Positions 1,329 through 35,025 of a DNA stretch of 35,025 nucleotides are shown one piece after another. This stretch comes from Thermoplasmata archaeon (GTDB lineage Archaea; Thermoplasmatota; Thermoplasmata; Thermoplasmatales; ARK-15). The stretch is taken from the NCBI GenBank assembly GCA_023261745.1, contig JAGDXR010000009.1:1-35025 (forward strand), read 5' to 3'. The notes beneath the pieces were generated by a model, which worked only from the letters and a program-made list of their open reading frames with translations, was not told the origin of the DNA and searched no databases. Both the position numbers and the translations under genes were made by a program. Each line of letters begins with the position of its first letter. Positions within the stretch are counted from its first letter, which is position 1.

Positions 1329-3287
1329 TCAGATAAGTCTTATTTCATCGTATGCCGCCCGTAAAATTTTGAGATAGTATGAAATTGAATAATCTACATC
1401 TGAACCCTCGGATGCTGCCTTTAGAGGCTTTTCAGAATATATTATGTATCTGATCTTTTCTGATGGCCTGTAGATGACATTTTTTCCATAAAATTCTTCC
1501 AGTACCTGTTTGGAAGGGTTTGTTGATGTATATTCCCATGGATATCTATTGACACGCTTTTCAATTAACAGTTTTTTTATTTCAACATCCCTTGTCTCAA
1601 TCTTTTCCTTGTATTCAATGAAAATTTTTTTAATGTCATATTTCTCTGTATCTGCAGGGACCTTAACATTTTTCAATATCTCAAGTGCTTCATTCTGAAA
1701 TTCCTTTACAATTTCCGGAGTATCATGCCTTCTGAGCATTATACCCCTTATCTTGTAATTTCCATCCATACCCCTGGCTACATATCGCCCCGGGATTCCT
1801 AAGGAAATGTCCCCCTTCATAGGCAGAATTTTTATCCAGTAATATTTGTCGGATAATTCTATCGGCAGGTCGGTCACCCTCTCTATTTCCTCTATAATGC
1901 TGGAATCAACAAGTCCAGAAACCCAGAGGGAATCCACTATCATTGAAATTACATTGAAACCATATTTTTCCACTATCTCTTTGGCCCTTAATAAAAATTC
2001 TCGTGCATATGCATTGATACTTTCATGAACCTCTATGCTACCGAATTTAGCATTTCTGTATCCCGTATATCCAAAAGATGTTACAAGCATCCATTTAAAT
2101 GCTTTATCCACGCCTTCCATGCTTTTCATGTTCTTTTTCAGTCTTTTGATACCTATTCTCAGATTCAGAAAATCTTCAAGGGCATACGAAAGAAAACCTT
2201 TTTTATCAATACATACATTATATCCAAGTTCGGGGACGGTTTCATAACTTTTGCATTTTCCATTCACCGTTTCAAGAGATAAATTCTTTTTCACTATTAT
2301 TGATGGATACATCGATGTAAAATCCAGTTCAGAAACATTCCAGTATAACCCTGGCCTGACCTGGTAGACCAGGCCACCCCTGTCTGCCTTTATTAAAGTT
2401 TCGATATTCTTTTCCCTCTCAGGATGCGATTTATGATATGGTACAGATAATCCATTTCTCAGTGCTTTTGATACTTCCAGGCTTGATATCAGTGTTCCAG
2501 GCGTAGATCTAGAAGCATATGAAGGATCGAGGGAGGATATTGCAGATGAGGCCAGAACACCGAATAAACCTCCTTCAGAATAAATGAAACTTGTCTGAGG
2601 ATCTATCAATGATCTTCCCCTGGGTATATATGTCATTTCCTTATGGTAGGTATAGCCATAGGAAAAATATTCCTTTTCCCTTATCACATTCCATCCTGGC
2701 ATTCTTCCCAGATAGAAATCATAACCTTTTTTATTGGATTCATATATCCAGTCCGGGATGATGGAATCCGCTCCTTCCATTATTATTATGTCGGGATCTT
2801 CATCTATAACCGTATCCATTAACTTCAAATAATCATTAAAATAATATTCCCTGCCACTGTATTCATAATAATTGGTATGTCTTTTGAAATTCATTATTTC
2901 AATTCCACTGAAATCCGGTATCCCATTTTTGTAATCATAATAGTTAAAATTCTTTTCAGAGATATATCTAAGCGGTAACCTTATATCAACATTGTAAAAA
3001 TCCACAAGATAATAATTGAAATATCTTTCCACCATGCTTGATAATTTGAAAAATGATTGTGAATACGTTTTAATGTAATATCCATCATATTCACCAAAAA
3101 TTGTCCTGAATTTTTTTCTCCCCTTTTCCAGTATACCAGGATAATCGAATTCCAGAACCTTTTCAGAAATACCCTTTTCATCATACAACAATATTTCAGG
3201 GAAGTATTCTTCGGAAATGCTCCTTACCCTCCCGTTTTCCCTTAAAAAAAGATGAGCTTTTTTCTGAACTTCTACTGAGACGAGCAT
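1329..3287 (-). CDS. Divergent family-B DNA polymerase, PolB2-like (probably 'inactivated' clade)
   Basis: [18 protein letters not shown] (motif A), [19 protein letters not shown] (degenerate motif B), [15 protein letters not shown] (motif C with DTD->IVD), [26 protein letters not shown] (post-motif-C region); exonuclease motifs degenerate. Confidence 0.85.
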
Positions 3288-3517
3288 TTCTTTTCAAGTT
3301 CCATTAATTCTCTTTCCATTTCAATAAGCACAGATAATATTACAGCTTCAAGTGGATCTTCGAGGGAATATGAGGATTCCGCAGTATGCCTCTTTGCCTT
3401 CTCGATTATCTTTTCCATATACTGTTTGTCTTCCGCATGCATGGCCTTCATGAAAGATTGCCATCTCTCTATGATGGCATTTATTTCCTGTCTCATTGTT
3501 GAAATGTTCCTTCCCAT
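3272..3517 (-). CDS. Small charged helical protein of the PolB2 cassette
   Basis: 81-aa ORF overlapping the PolB2 start by 16 nt, same strand, predicted largely helical and charged; no recognised domain. Confidence 0.7.
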   Translation of the reverse strand: MGRNISTMRQEINAIIERWQSFMKAMHAEDKQYMEKIIEKAKRHTAESSYSLEDPLEAVILSVLIEMERELMELEKKCSSQ

Positions 3518-3529
3518 GATATCACCACC

Positions 3530-4081
3530 TCATTCACCATCAAAATCAAAAATGGATAGCTGCCCAGGTATATAATAGAAGTGATATATTCTGTCACCAT
3601 ATTTTATTGTATACCCATTCTGGTGCTTTTCAGTCAGTATATAAGGAAACCTTGCCAAAAAAGGAAATGAATAAGAGGAAAAGAATAACGTTATTGAATT
3701 GTTTTCGCTTGTATATTCCAGCATTCCATTCACAATTCCGGAAATGAGGGAAAACTTTTCATCATTTCTCAAATCTGAATATGAAATGGGATCAAAATAA
3801 TAGATCAATAAGTCATACTTATTTTTCAATTCCTTTAAAATTTCGATTATCTGGTAAAATGTGAACCCCCTTCTCACCGTGATTTTTATATTATTTTTGA
3901 ATTTTTTGATCATATTGTAAGATGATCTAAGATCTGTGGGTGTATAATTCCCCATTATTAAATAATCGTTCATTCCTGCGAGCTGTGATTCAACCAGTAA
4001 CCTCTCGGATGGAAATGCGTCAGGGTTTTTTATTATATACATTTTCCCATAATCAAAAATATCGTAAAGACGAATTAACAT
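3530..4081 (-). CDS. RecA-fold-like protein without Walker A, with C-terminal PIP-box-like peptide (PolB2 cassette)
   Basis: 183 aa; YDLLIYYFDPISYSD is Walker-B-like, no GxxxxGK[TS]; C-terminus GQLSIFDFDGE; 12 nt upstream of the small gene. Confidence 0.65.
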   Translation of the reverse strand: MLIRLYDIFDYGKMYIIKNPDAFPSERLLVESQLAGMNDYLIMGNYTPTDLRSSYNMIKKFKNNIKITVRRGFTFYQIIEILKELKNKYDLLIYYFDPISYSDLRNDEKFSLISGIVNGMLEYTSENNSITLFFSSYSFPFLARFPYILTEKHQNGYTIKYGDRIYHFYYIPGQLSIFDFDGE

Positions 4082-4084
4082 TTT

Positions 4085-4127
4085 GTGAATATGATCAAAA
4101 AATTAATTTAAAATATTTTTGATTCAC
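4085..4127. promoter_or_regulatory. Inverted repeat flanking a TATA-like AT-rich core upstream of the PolB2 cassette
   Basis: ATCAAAAA (4094-4101) / TTTTTGAT (4116-4123) perfect arms with outer GTGAAT (4085-4090) / ATTCAC (4122-4127); core ATTAATTTAAAATAT lies about 25 nt upstream of the 4081 start codon. Confidence 0.4.
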
Positions 4128-4672
4128 GATAGCATTAAATCCATCTGGGCAAATGCTACCTGTTGCAATTCAGAGACGTTTTCAAAATAATATGTCCCTG
4201 TAATATTTATGAAATAATTGTAATAGTAAATGAATATTATTGCTTCATGAAAATGAGGTAAATTTGCCTCCCTGTACTGGAATACCTTATAATTCCCGTA
4301 CGTTGAATTGGGTAAAATTGTGTGTATGAAAGGGAAATATGCCTGTGAAGGAGAATCCATTTCCTGATAATATACTTCTAAGAAAGATTTGTATGGATAG
4401 AAATATGTCTGCTCAAAATACATCTTAAGATAATTGGATGTTGAAACATTGTATACTTTATAAGTCCCATTCTTAATATCATAATTATTGTATATTTTCT
4501 CGACAGTCGAAAGATTGACTATTGAATTATTAATCGGAACATACGGCTGCTGTGGCGAATTCCCCCAATACTTTGTATTCTGAAAATTATAAAACATAAC
4601 CTCATACATTGCAAATGCGAGGACAAAAATTACAACTACAATAATTATGATGAGTTTTTTCAATGAAATCAT
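4124..4672 (-). CDS. Hypothetical protein with N-terminal membrane anchor
   Basis: MISLKKLIIIIVVVIFVLAFAMYEVMFYN signal/TM segment, then Asn/Tyr-rich, N-glycosylation-sequon-rich extracytoplasmic domain. Confidence 0.65.
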   Translation of the reverse strand: MISLKKLIIIIVVVIFVLAFAMYEVMFYNFQNTKYWGNSPQQPYVPINNSIVNLSTVEKIYNNYDIKNGTYKVYNVSTSNYLKMYFEQTYFYPYKSFLEVYYQEMDSPSQAYFPFIHTILPNSTYGNYKVFQYREANLPHFHEAIIFIYYYNYFINITGTYYFENVSELQQVAFAQMDLMLS

Positions 4673-24023: not shown

Positions 24024-26519
24024 TCATAGAAATTTTTTCAATTCATTGATTTTTCTTTTTAACTCATCGTATGTTGTATTTTCGGTATCAATGTTCTTTA
24101 ATTCCTCTTTTAGGATGATATCATTCAGGCTTACCTGTTTTACATTTCTCTTGACATCCAGTACATTTTCTTTCTCTATTTTTTCCAATATTTCTCTGGC
24201 TCTCTGAACAATACTCTGGGGTAAACCTGCCATTGAAGCTACCTCTATTCCATAGCTCTCACTCATTCCACCTTTTTTGATTTTTCTCGTGAAAATTATT
24301 CCATTTGAAGTCTTCTCAACTGGCATATGGTAGTTTTTTACTCCATCAAGATACCTTTCAAGTTCAATTAGATGATGGTAATGTGTTGCAAAGATTGTTC
24401 TTGATTTTATCTTGTTGTGTATGTATTCTGCAGAAGCCCATGCAATGGCCAGACCATCAAATGTTCCGGTTCCCCTTCCTATTTCATCAAGAATAATGAT
24501 ACTCTTCTCTGTGGAATAAACCAGAATCTTGGATAGTTCAACCATTTCCATCATGAAAGTGCTTATCCCCATGAGAATGTCATCTGAAGCCCCTATACGT
24601 GTGAAGATTCTGTCAACTATCCCTATTCTGGAATATGATGCAGGAACAAATGAACCTATCTGTGCCATTATTACTATATTTGCTATCATCCTCATGTATG
24701 TGCTTTTCCCAGACATGTTTGGACCTGTGAGTATTATAAATCTATTTTTATCTGTATCAATAAAAACGTCATTTGGAACAAAATTTTCAACGAATTCTTC
24801 AACCACTGGATGTCTCCCATCCCTTATTTCAATAATTCTGGAATCATCCATTACAGGCATAACATAATTTTTTCTTGCGGCAATGTCGGCAAAGGTTAGA
24901 AGAACATCCAGATCAGCAAAAACTTTTGATGTTTCGAGGATCTCATCGGAATTGGATATCTTTTCCAAAAGAGCTTTGAAAACCTCCTCCTCTCTGTATG
25001 CCATATTTTCCTTTGCATCCATCACCTTGAACTGAAGATCTTCCAGTTCCCTTGTGGTATATCGTTCAACATTTTTTAGAGTCTGTTTTCTTATGAAATG
25101 CTGGGGAACTTTCTGCAAATTTGATTTTGTTATCTCTATATAATATCCAATAACATCATTATAGCCTATTCTCAAATTTCTTATACCTGTTTTCCTTATC
25201 TCATCGTTTTCTATTATCCTGATATTCCTTTCAACATCCCTCAAAATCTTTCTATAATTGTCAAGGATTTCATCATAACCATCCTTTATAATATATTCCT
25301 TTGTTGCATCTTCTTCAATGGATTTCTCAATCTCCTTTTTAACTTCTTCAAAATCTTTTATGGATTTTAGATAATTTGAAATTAGAACAGAATGAAAATT
25401 TGAAAGGACTTCCTTTAGATTAGGTATCTGATACAAAAATGATTTTAACATTAAAAGATCATTTTTTGTAGCTTTACCGGTTTTTATTCTTCCCCATATC
25501 CTTTCAACATCCGGAATCTTTTCTAAAATTGAAAATATTTCCATCCTCAATATGGGTAAATCGTAAAATTCCTTTACCGCCTCAAGCCTCTCAGTTATCT
25601 TGACCCTATCTATTAAAGGAAAAGAAAGTAGATTGAAGAGTCTCCTAGAACCCATTTTTGTTCTGCATTTATCAAGAAGCCCAAAAAGTGAATTCTTTTT
25701 TTCACCTCTGTAATCGGAAAATATTTCCAGATTCCGTACTGTGGACTCATCAAGAAACATGTAATCATTTATCTGGGAGATCCTGATTTCCCTGATGTTT
25801 TTTAAAATCTCCTTATCACCCTTTTCAAGGTATTTTAAGAAACCCCCAAGCGAAATAACTATTTCAGAATTATTCAATACCTCACTTAAAATATTATTTT
25901 TCACATTTTTTGTTATTATTTCAATTGCTTCCTGATAACCAATATCAATTTTTGAAAGGAATATGGATTTTTCCTTGGATATCTTCTGGACATCATTATC
26001 ATTAACATTTATCAGTAATATTTCGCGTGGATTCAATTTATACATTTCAGATAATATCTCATCCTTATTTTTAGACTGTATGATCCTTATTTCTCCTGTA
26101 GAAATATCGGAAAAAACGGAAATGTAATTCTTATCATAATATAATGAAAATAGATAATTTGTTATTCCCACGAGAAGGTCTTCTTCAATTACAGTTCCTG
26201 GTGTGAAAATCCTTGTCACTTCCCTTTTAACAATGCCTTTGGCAAATTTTGGATTTTCAATCTGTTCACACAGAGCAACCTTATATCCCCTGTTTAAGAG
26301 TTTTGAGAGGTATGGGTAAAGAGCATGAAATGGTATTCCGGCCATCGGGATTTCATTTTTCTCTCTGTTTCTCGATGTCAAAACAAGGTTTAGTTCCTTG
26401 GAAACTGTTATAGCGTCATCCCCAAATGTTTCATAAAAATCTCCAACTCTATACAATAAGATTGCATCACGATAATTTTTCTTTATTTCATTATACTGTT
26501 TCATCAGAGGAGTTTCCAT
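24024..26519 (-). CDS. mutS: DNA mismatch repair protein MutS (MutS1 type)
   Basis: GDFYETFGDDA (Phe-x-Glu), ILTGPNMSGKSTYMRMIANIVIMAQIGSFVPA, ILDEIGRGTGTFDGLAIAWASAEYI, FATHYHHL. Confidence 0.97.
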   Translation of the reverse strand: METPLMKQYNEIKKNYRDAILLYRVGDFYETFGDDAITVSKELNLVLTSRNREKNEIPMAGIPFHALYPYLSKLLNRGYKVALCEQIENPKFAKGIVKREVTRIFTPGTVIEEDLLVGITNYLFSLYYDKNYISVFSDISTGEIRIIQSKNKDEILSEMYKLNPREILLINVNDNDVQKISKEKSIFLSKIDIGYQEAIEIITKNVKNNILSEVLNNSEIVISLGGFLKYLEKGDKEILKNIREIRISQINDYMFLDESTVRNLEIFSDYRGEKKNSLFGLLDKCRTKMGSRRLFNLLSFPLIDRVKITERLEAVKEFYDLPILRMEIFSILEKIPDVERIWGRIKTGKATKNDLLMLKSFLYQIPNLKEVLSNFHSVLISNYLKSIKDFEEVKKEIEKSIEEDATKEYIIKDGYDEILDNYRKILRDVERNIRIIENDEIRKTGIRNLRIGYNDVIGYYIEITKSNLQKVPQHFIRKQTLKNVERYTTRELEDLQFKVMDAKENMAYREEEVFKALLEKISNSDEILETSKVFADLDVLLTFADIAARKNYVMPVMDDSRIIEIRDGRHPVVEEFVENFVPNDVFIDTDKNRFIILTGPNMSGKSTYMRMIANIVIMAQIGSFVPASYSRIGIVDRIFTRIGASDDILMGISTFMMEMVELSKILVYSTEKSIIILDEIGRGTGTFDGLAIAWASAEYIHNKIKSRTIFATHYHHLIELERYLDGVKNYHMPVEKTSNGIIFTRKIKKGGMSESYGIEVASMAGLPQSIVQRAREILEKIEKENVLDVKRNVKQVSLNDIILKEELKNIDTENTTYDELKRKINELKKFL

Positions 26520-32182: not shown

Positions 32183-32848
32183 ATGATAATCCTGGACTAT
32201 AGAGAAAGAAGTATCATTTCACTGATGTTTGATATAGATGATAGAATAGATATCTATAACCTTCCGGTAGGTGATATTCTTATACCTGTAAATGGTTCCG
32301 CTATTTTAATTGAAAGAAAAACACCATTGGATTTATCATCCTCAATAAAAACAAGGAGAATTTTCGATCAGGCTTCAAGAATTTTTAAAGAAGATAGTGT
32401 TTTGAATTATAAAATAAAGAGAAAAATTTTGCTGATACATGGAGAAATCATGGACTATGAAAATCTACTCGGTTTGAGTGTGGCATCGATATACGGGGCA
32501 ATACTGGAAATAAGATACAGATATAGAATCGATGTATTTGTATCCCCAAATGATTTCCATTTTAAGGAATTCATAAGGATTCTCAGGAAAAGAGAAATTG
32601 AGGGAAAAGATGACGGGAATTTTGAAGAAGTATGGGAAAGGAGAATTAATAAGTCGGATACATTGGAATCATGGAAAATTTACGTCCTAACATCTCTGCC
32701 ATATGTTGGCGATAAAACGGCAAAATTTCTTCTGGAGAGGTTCAGAACAATTGAAAATATAGCAAAAGCTCCTCTATCTGATCTAAAAAATATTCCTGGA
32801 ATTGGAGAAAAAAAGGCTAAAAAAATATATGATATATTTCATCAGTGA
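32183..32848 (+). CDS. XPF/ERCC4-type endonuclease, short form (nuclease + HhH, no helicase)
   Basis: ILDYRER...GDILIPVNGSAILIERKTPLDLSSSI (ERK nuclease motif), tandem helix-hairpin-helix LPYVGDKTAKFLLERF / IPGIGEKKAKKI. Confidence 0.92.
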   Translation: MIILDYRERSIISLMFDIDDRIDIYNLPVGDILIPVNGSAILIERKTPLDLSSSIKTRRIFDQASRIFKEDSVLNYKIKRKILLIHGEIMDYENLLGLSVASIYGAILEIRYRYRIDVFVSPNDFHFKEFIRILRKREIEGKDDGNFEEVWERRINKSDTLESWKIYVLTSLPYVGDKTAKFLLERFRTIENIAKAPLSDLKNIPGIGEKKAKKIYDIFHQ

Positions 32849-33588
32849 ACGATTTTGGATATTGTTATACCTGTCTCTGTAAGATTATATTTGAATACTC
32901 CAACCTTATCAGGATAATTTCTGAACTTTTTTATTGTGAATATCCTGTCAAAACCCATCGGTGCCCTAACATTTTCCATGGTCAATATGATATCCACAAT
33001 TTCTTCAATGGCGTTTTGAACCATGGATGGATAAAGGGATGAGACCTGGGTAAGGAGTGCAACTCCCTGGGTATACTGTGTATGCATTTTTATTGTCCTC
33101 ACCGTTGAAAGAGCTTCAGAATGATCCGTCTGGCTGAAAAGAAAATCTAAAGAATCCAGAACCATTCTGTAAGGTGATTTGACCGTGGAAAGTGCGTATT
33201 TAACAAGTGTTATTATTTCGAATTCCTTTTCAAGCTTGAATTTATGAGGCTTGAGTATTTCCTCAGCAGGAATTCCTTCCTCCCTATATTTACTTATTAT
33301 TATCTCCTTTTCCAGAACCCTCTTATAATATGCCTCACCTATATTTATTATCGATATATTATCAGTCTTCCATTTAAAATTCTTCATGGTATTCAAGATA
33401 TCTTCCGTTCTTTCATTTGTAGTAAGATAAACTGAATGTTCTCCCGGAATGTAACTTGATGCAAATTGCTTTGCAAATACCTCAATTCCAGACCCTGGCG
33501 TACCTGATAATAATATTGTATACCCCATAGGCACACCCATCATCAATGACGAATCAAGATTCTCAATTCCCGTTGGGACGGTTTTCAT
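32842..33588 (-). CDS. KaiC/RecA-superfamily protein with degenerate Walker A
   Basis: TGIENLDSSLMMGVPMGYTILLSGTPGSGIEVFAKQFASSY (GK[TS]->GIE), VYLTTNERTEDIL, YRMVLDSLDFL. Confidence 0.88.
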   Translation of the reverse strand: MKTVPTGIENLDSSLMMGVPMGYTILLSGTPGSGIEVFAKQFASSYIPGEHSVYLTTNERTEDILNTMKNFKWKTDNISIINIGEAYYKRVLEKEIIISKYREEGIPAEEILKPHKFKLEKEFEIITLVKYALSTVKSPYRMVLDSLDFLFSQTDHSEALSTVRTIKMHTQYTQGVALLTQVSSLYPSMVQNAIEEIVDIILTMENVRAPMGFDRIFTIKKFRNYPDKVGVFKYNLTETGITISKIVH

Positions 33589-33589
33589 G

Positions 33590-34150
33590 TCAATCTACCT
33601 CTATAATTTCATCGCTCACTATACTCATTATATTTTTTATTTCCTGCGTATTCTGGTCCCTTATTGATAAAATTATAAAGAATGCATTTTTAGACCTTAT
33701 TAATGTAGCGAATAAATGGAAAAATTCAGAGAGTATTTTTGTGTCATTGTGAACAGCCAGGGTATTGATTGAATCTATTATTATTGCAACGTCCCCCTTG
33801 ATATATTTTTCCATTATGTATTCCGTTTTGATCATTATCGTTTCAAGCATTGTTGGGCTCTCTACATAAAGAATATTGGGATTATTATATTCAGAAGCCA
33901 TCATAATGCTTGATATTGTATCAACAAAGTATATGTTATTCAGATCCAGGCCATAGACTTCAAGCAAACTTATAATGTTTTTACTGGGAATTGTTGAGGA
34001 TATGTAAATTACTGAAAGGTTCTTTTCCTTTGTAAATGCGTTAAGAAGATCTTTTATTCCTTCAAAAAATGATGTGATATTGAAAATGACACTAAAACTC
34101 TCAGGATCAGTTATGGATTTTAATTTTATCAGAAATTCATCATAATTCAT
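33590..34150 (-). CDS. KaiC/RecA-superfamily-like protein lacking Walker A
   Basis: 186 aa; Walker-B-like DVAIIIDSINTL in the order and context of neighbouring KaiC paralogues; no P-loop. Confidence 0.7.
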   Translation of the reverse strand: MNYDEFLIKLKSITDPESFSVIFNITSFFEGIKDLLNAFTKEKNLSVIYISSTIPSKNIISLLEVYGLDLNNIYFVDTISSIMMASEYNNPNILYVESPTMLETIMIKTEYIMEKYIKGDVAIIIDSINTLAVHNDTKILSEFFHLFATLIRSKNAFFIILSIRDQNTQEIKNIMSIVSDEIIEVD

Positions 34151-34885
34151 CTATTCACCCCCATTCTTTAGCAGGGGAACAAGCATTATTCCTATGGACG
34201 TTAATTCCAGAACATATGTTGCTCTTGAATGTGCGGTCCCTCTCATCTTTATTACTCTGAGTGTCCTGAGTAGATCCCCCCTTCTTTCATAATTTCCCAT
34301 CAGGATTATTCCATCCGCAATTGCTTCTTCAACTCCGTATTGTGAATAACCCTTTGCAAATGGTAATAGTTCTGATATCATTAAGGTGGTAGCACCGAAC
34401 TCCTGAAGAGCTTTTCCCAATCTCAGTATAAATTCCATTATTTTTTCTTCTGTCTCAAGCCTGTAACATATACTTGTAATTGAATCTATCACAACCCTCT
34501 TTATATTGAATTCCTTGACAATTTTTATAATATTTTCAATAAGAAGATTTATATCCTCAATATTAAACTGAAGTTTATTCAGGCCAAGTTTCTCATAAAT
34601 TTCAGGTATATCTATAAAAATTATATCCTTCTGAATGTTTTCTCTCGAGAAAAAATCGTATGTTATCAGATTTTCAACCAGTTTCCCTGAGTCTTCTGTA
34701 ACAGATATATAAAGGCCCTTTTCACCCATGATTGCTCCATGCACTAAAAATTCTATACTAAGGGTTGTTTTGCCTGTCCCGGCAGATCCAGAAATTAAAA
34801 CTGTATTACCAACAGGTATACCACCATTAAGAATTGTGTCCAGACCACGTATACCAGTTAGACACTTTTTTCTGGCTTCTGCCAT
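34151..34885 (-). CDS. KaiC-domain ATPase
   Basis: TGIRGLDTILNGGIPVGNTVLISGSAGTGKTTLSIEFLVHGA intact Walker A; VVIDSITSI Walker B; start taken as MAEARKK, not the upstream TTG at 34945. Confidence 0.93.
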   Translation of the reverse strand: MAEARKKCLTGIRGLDTILNGGIPVGNTVLISGSAGTGKTTLSIEFLVHGAIMGEKGLYISVTEDSGKLVENLITYDFFSRENIQKDIIFIDIPEIYEKLGLNKLQFNIEDINLLIENIIKIVKEFNIKRVVIDSITSICYRLETEEKIMEFILRLGKALQEFGATTLMISELLPFAKGYSQYGVEEAIADGIILMGNYERRGDLLRTLRVIKMRGTAHSRATYVLELTSIGIMLVPLLKNGGE

Positions 34886-34932
34886 AATTAAGTAAGTTAT
34901 ATTTGGTTTATTAAACTTTATTATTTCAAAAT

Positions 34933-35025
34933 GTGACCCTCTCAACTAAAGCATCAGTGCTTCCTAACTTGTCAGCTACTCCTCGCTAAAGCTTCGGAGC
35001 CTGTTGCTGGCCTCCTGCTCCACCC
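34933..35025 (-). mobile_element. Possible IS200/IS605-type element right end with 3' tail of a TnpB-like CDS
   Basis: GC-rich contrast; partial frame ...VEQEASNRLRSFSEE* (stop 34976-34978) followed by hairpin AAGCA-TCAG-TGCTT (34949-34962) and GAGAGGGTCAC. Confidence 0.4.

Follow-up and report, generated by a model that had tools for sequence, protein, structure and literature searches.

The three minus-strand genes at positions 1329-4081 of the analysed DNA are, with a probability of roughly 0.85, a PolB2 mutasome operon (iRadA-PPB2-polB2) of an archaeon of the order Thermoplasmatales, the products of which likely form one complex for the extension of primers at lesions. The trio is the already published archaeal PolB2 mutasome operon, consisting of arCOG07300/PPB2, an inactivated RadA and PolB2. 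An earlier sequence-only reading had proposed a mutasome, and its PolB2 cassette with co-conserved partners stands, in agreement with published work (PMC4104785; PMC11791011), although the system is not new. The present analysis establishes the gene order and the family membership, predicts the folds of PolB2 and iRadA, and shows interface and catalytic residues to be conserved.

The window, that is, the whole stretch of 35,025 nucleotides that was analysed, is one contig (41) of the assembly G000, which has a genome size of 1.07 Mb and is 82.6% complete, and is AT-rich (35% GC). Close relatives with named matches (Thermoplasmata MAGs, ARK-15, I-plasma) put it near the Thermoplasmatales. In the ORF list of the window, the genes encode iRadA (4081-3530, 183 aa), PPB2 (3517-3272, 81 aa) and PolB2 (3287-1329, 652 aa), all on the minus strand. 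A gap of 12 nt (3518-3529) separates iRadA from PPB2, and PPB2 and polB2 overlap by 16 nt (3272-3287); the tight same-strand packing described previously is exact to the base. The ORF upstream of iRadA (4124-4672) was rejected as a fourth member, its sole clear homologue lying on another contig of the genome G001, off the operon. Elsewhere in the window, a bacterial-type MutS1 is encoded at 24024-26519 on the minus strand (NF003810, E = 4.9e-274); using the codes f1 to f6 for families within the same order, with f1 as the family of the window itself, MutS was found in f1, f2, f4 and f5, and the f3 and f6 genomes searched had none. A 186-aa ORF without a family match (33590-34150, minus strand) lies between two genes for KaiC/RecA-like ATPases (32842-33588 and 34151-34945) on the same strand and is perhaps a degenerate KaiC-type protein. 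The G000 assembly gave no match to the replicative PolB3 that other f1 genomes have, most likely as a result of its 82.6% completeness.

The order iRadA-PPB2-PolB2 was found adjacent and co-directional in all 30 loci compared (the window and 29 relatives), mostly with short gaps or overlaps and with PPB2 homologues directly upstream of polB2, showing both small genes to be co-conserved with the polymerase beyond chance, in keeping with the earlier proposal of a cassette. PPB2 lies beside PolB2 in 65 of 84 additional loci, a set that shares some genomes with the first 30; several of the misses fall at contig ends, and some PolB2s of the Methanothrix type appear to be solitary. Methanothrix-/Methanomicrobiales-type PolB2s with no detectable PPB2 neighbour (L072, L075, L082, L083, L091, L092, L133, L138 and L142), several of which have EVD as motif C, are possible stand-alone PolB2 paralogues. 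One named haloarchaeal plasmid carries Cdc6, a 672-nt gene, a 273-nt gene and PolB2, in that order. The PolB2 system is dispensable, since the f1 genome G002 (96% complete) has a PolB3-type match only.

Regarding the polymerase, the best NCBIfam model was NF004416 (E = 1.7e-145; 486 of 516 bits, just below the curated cut-off), which was also the best model for one PolB2 each of Archaeoglobales, of an f1 relative and of a Leptospira phage, and DNA_pol_B was the only Pfam domain above the cut-off. The AlphaFold2 model (pLDDT 89.3) has the full archaeal family-B fold (Z 26.8, rmsd 3.1, 605 residues aligned). Motif A is kept as read earlier (residues 322-331, D322-FTSMYPSII; 2295-2324, minus strand), including the catalytic Asp322, with D322, S325, M326, Y327 and P328 invariant in 18 PolB2s. 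Motif C reads IVDS for DTDS (residues 450-453; 1929-1940, minus strand) in the alignment to PDB sequences, so that the previously noted IVD in place of DTD corresponds to I450-V451-D452, with the second Asp kept and V451, D452 and S453 invariant among the 18 relatives. In motif B (residues 398-407, K398-WMLVTSFGY; 2067-2096, minus strand), the change read previously as TSFGY for NSxYGY is real and its register was refined by the PDB alignment: Lys398 is kept, the canonical N-S corresponds to V402-T403, giving VTSFGY for NS(L/Y)YGY, and K398 and S404-Y407 are invariant in the 18 PolB2s. The exonuclease motifs are unrecognisable, as had been reported, with Ile at the position of the catalytic Asp where the Exo II stretch aligns to Y(N/D)GDNFDFAY and no match to the Pfam exonuclease domain in the window PolB2.

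The loss of the first Asp of motif C, of the NS of motif B and of the exonuclease signatures would fit a catalytically dead PolB2 that, together with iRadA, scaffolds or regulates replication or recombination, the view taken in 2014, when inactivation and a replication-related role were proposed (PMC4104785). This is nevertheless improbable, as D322 (motif A), K398 (motif B) and D452 (motif C) are strictly conserved over wide divergence in the 18 relatives, and as the Dpo2 of S. islandicus, whose motif C reads IID, actively extends primers (PMC8764526) and drives mutagenesis, being solely responsible for its damage-induced form (PMC7390963). The term degenerate, applied to the polymerase in the sequence-only reading, is thus not to be equated with inactive.

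Regarding its placement, a 57-row tree separated PolB2 from PolB3 (SH-aLRT 99 for PolB2 and 100 for PolB3) and a careful 37-row tree recovered the same split (100/100); in both trees, which contained no PolB1 sequences, the polymerase falls with archaeal PolB2 and away from PolB3, upholding the PolB2-type assignment. Its identity to haloarchaeal PolB2s is about 27-33%. PolB2 genes are carried by many haloarchaeal plasmids and occur in four Leptospira phage records, which would be consistent with derivation of the polymerase from a virus, a casposon or another mobile element; such an origin is nonetheless very improbable, considering that the trees place the polymerase among archaeal PolB2s, that four f1 genomes share an M20 amidohydrolase gene next to polB2 on its downstream side, amid apparently housekeeping genes, and that no integrase or cas1 was noted near the operon in the window. 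A possible acquisition of the f1 operon from methanogens received conflicting signals: a quick tree joined f1 to methanogens and Archaeoglobi (SH-aLRT 98), the careful tree groups f1 with f3 and f6 (80/68), and a grouping of f1 with methanogens is not rejected (p-AU 0.32). Many f4 genomes (L146-L151) have a separate B-family polymerase of ~580 aa, in which DTD is intact as motif C and the exonuclease domain is partial; no PPB2 was noted alongside.

The iRadA sequence had no Pfam or NCBIfam family above the cut-off, and its profile found no matching sequence in the PDB. Its AlphaFold2 model (pLDDT 82.9) has the fold of the RAD51/RadA core (Z 15.2, rmsd 2.8 A, 170 residues aligned, matching RAD51 residues 107-332), which bears out the earlier description of the third gene as RecA-like; the protein (3530-4081, minus strand) has no N-terminal domain and the Walker A motif GxxxxGK[ST] is absent from all 183 aa. 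A real RadA with a Walker A motif is encoded on another contig of the same genome. Aligned to VARAYNSSHQ of RadA, the iRadA signature R71-GFTFY-Q77 (3851-3871, minus strand) is the equivalent of the RadA ARAYNxxHQ segment, and R71 and Q77 are the sole invariant columns of the iRadA alignment. The f1 iRadAs matched the RadA profile weakly in hhalign (E 0.14), and iRadAs of a more typical kind, from haloarchaea and an f2 genome, did so with 87% probability (E 3.9e-6); the link between f1 iRadA and RadA is drawn from the fold, the bridging family members (E 4e-6) and the gene position. Sequence deterioration of iRadA has been described before (PMC4104785), and the window protein fits this description.

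The small, presumably helical protein PPB2 (arCOG07300-like) has the traits of its family in the window, namely an N-terminal MGR(T/N), Arg9 and a site beside polB2. Its N-terminal arm MGRN (MGRT-type motif; 3506-3517, minus strand) includes M1, G2 and R3, which are invariant in 18 sequences together with R9, and these residues are predicted to contact PolB2, iRadA and DNA (PMC11791011). On the side of the polymerase, D302-R303 (2379-2384, minus strand), the D(K/R) motif before motif A, is the predicted contact of the PPB2 arm, a role taken from PMC11791011; D302 is invariant in 18 PolB2s, and the motif reads DRGG or DKGG in 80/80 further loci. No homology of PPB2 to UmuD or ImuB was detected. 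In the Leptospira phage L180 (KF114878), an MGRT-type PPB2 lies immediately upstream of a PolB2-type polymerase.

The complex architecture, polymerase activity, lesion bypass and damage induction carry over by analogy from published PolB2s, and damage-tolerant primer extension past lesions is the most likely function of the operon. PolB2, iRadA and PPB2 would assemble into one complex, in which a PPB2 trimer would reach with one of its N-terminal MGRN arms into the cleft that PolB2 (at D302-R303) forms with iRadA, and iRadA, a RAD51 core without the ATP-binding loop, would dock on PolB2 at a RAD51-like oligomerisation motif. The C-terminal QLSIFDF of iRadA could bring PCNA, and the exonuclease-dead PolB2, which keeps D322 and D452, would extend mispaired or lesion-opposed primer ends, giving rise to damage tolerance and mutations. 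Literature searches found no biochemical or expression data on Thermoplasmata PolB2.

Regarding the clamp, the C-terminus of the window iRadA carries a candidate PIP-like PCNA-binding motif, QLSIFDF (3542-3562, minus strand), with Q..[IL]..[FY] present in 4/4 f1 members; its second PIP-box aromatic is replaced by Asp in the window iRadA, and model confidence is <50 at this terminus. A clamp-binding motif on either iRadA or PolB2 is frequent among PolB2 mutasomes without being universal. When C-termini were scanned with the pattern Q..[ILMV]..[FYW], the motif was found in f1 on iRadA (4/4) and never on PolB2, in f3 on PolB2 (14/14) and never on iRadA, and in f6, in its strict form, on neither of the two. 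ORFs matching iRadA in size and position have QxTLExF-type ends in methanogens and Archaeoglobi, and the FEN1 controls of the same genomes had the expected boxes, with ends of the QKNIDQWF type. Shuttling of the clamp motif between iRadA and PolB2 has already been proposed (PMC11791011); what is added here is a family-by-family switch, with the motif on iRadA in f1 and on PolB2 in f3, a clear lineage pattern that backs the published idea. For f1, a link to PCNA through iRadA may be inferred from the motif.

As for regulation, the AT-rich gap of 42 nt upstream of iRadA (4082-4123, minus strand) holds a TATA-like stretch and an inverted repeat and is a candidate promoter, as read from the sequence only. 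The inverted repeat, ATCAAAAAT / ATTTTTTGAT at 4093-4123 (minus strand), was not seen in three f1 relatives and is a possible operator. Induction of Dpo2 in Sulfolobus requires Orc1-2, a protein that binds to damage-responsive promoters at an ANTTTC element (PMC9738581). The polB2 operons of f3 (L005-L019) have a strict tandem TCAWTTTTT repeat, TCAWTTTTTCAWTTTTTTCAWTT, which is perfect in 13/14 and has two mismatches in the fourteenth, 69-72 nt ahead of the iRadA start and immediately upstream of a TATA-like box. Only a few sites per f3 genome were found for TCAWTTTTTCAWTTTTTTCAWTT, with near-zero counts for the reversed control, and the repeat also precedes a 75-aa gene (9 genomes), other small ORFs and genes resembling IS605 OrfB (L221-L240). 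The genes with TCAWTTTTTCAWTTTTTTCAWTT in f3 constitute a candidate damage regulon. No UVR motif is claimed for the 75-aa protein, the matches falling below the Pfam cut-off (E 0.07-0.12). The f3 repeat was not found upstream of the window operon and had only three 2-mismatch matches in the genome of the window, each within an ORF; TCAWTTTTTCAWTTTTTTCAWTT therefore bears on the relatives and not on the window.

Of greater interest than the cassette itself are the lineage pattern of the clamp motif and the absent Y-family partner. A search for the IMS domain detected Y-family polymerases above the cut-off in 8/61 genomes, all of f6, and none in f1, f2 or f3 genomes; several of the searched assemblies are incomplete, and the absence is consistent across families. 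Genomes with PolB2 and without a Y-family polymerase account for 4/5 in f1, 1/1 in f2, 14/15 in f3 and 13/21 in f6, and f4 genomes have neither. Mutual exclusion of PolB2 and Y-family polymerases was not borne out, there being no association over the 61 genomes (p 0.43); within f6 p was 0.012, uncorrected for relatedness. Without a Y-family polymerase in f1, the bypass role would be otherwise unfilled. Since the Dpo2 of Sulfolobus is good at extension and poor at insertion (PMC8764526) and no Y-family polymerase was found, the question of the inserter arises in f1 to f3, where the inserter that usually accompanies this known extender seems to be missing. A tentative possibility, and a rather doubtful one, is that in this seemingly Y-family-less lineage iRadA-PPB2-PolB2 is the only translesion machine, performing both insertion and extension, or recruiting PolB3 or PolD for insertion, unlike the Dpo2 of Sulfolobus, with a PCNA tether that moved between subunits (iRadA here, PolB2 in f3) and with the f3 operon belonging to a small regulon whose promoter repeat TCAWTTTTTCAWTTTTTTCAWTT could be a damage-response operator. 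The PolB2 experiments found in the literature were all conducted in Sulfolobales, with a coexisting Y-family polymerase, and those Thermoplasmatales in which PolB2 occurs without a Y-family polymerase are a clean natural setting for asking whether PolB2 complexes can complete lesion bypass by themselves.

Compared with known systems, the window operon shares with the Dpo2 (PolB2) operon of S. islandicus the three genes, the loss of the exonuclease site, the MGR arm of PPB2 and an iRadA without ATPase site (PMC11791011; PMC8764526), as well as the replacement of the first Asp of motif C by Ile, giving IID there and IVD in the window (PMC8764526). It differs in being a Thermoplasmatota-side member, in having the PIP-like motif on iRadA and in having no adjacent Orc1/Cdc6 gene; moreover, S. 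islandicus has Dpo4, whereas a Y-family polymerase was not found in f1. The haloarchaeal PolB2 operon on a plasmid of Haladaptatus salinisoli (L178) has the same order iRadA-PPB2-PolB2, together with an [M/V]GRT PPB2 and an ARAFTPWQH-type signature in iRadA that are likened to those of the window, but has a Cdc6 gene directly upstream and a larger iRadA. The bacterial ImuA-ImuB-DnaE2 system (ImuABC), of which the sequence-only reading had proposed an archaeal analogue, is a multi-subunit machine with a RecA-family partner and a clamp tether that carries out damage-tolerant synthesis. The searches did not find a link between PPB2 and ImuB, and the closest published functional parallel is rather Pol V (UmuC-UmuD'2-RecA), which resembles the PolB2 mutasome in its multi-subunit composition, RecA-family partner, clamp tether and damage-tolerant synthesis (PMC11791011). 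The polymerases of Pol V and ImuA-ImuB-DnaE2 are of the Y or C family and unrelated to the B-family PolB2, and in Pol V the RecA is active. By analogy, the PolB2 operon may work like Pol V and ImuA-ImuB-DnaE2 without being a member of either.
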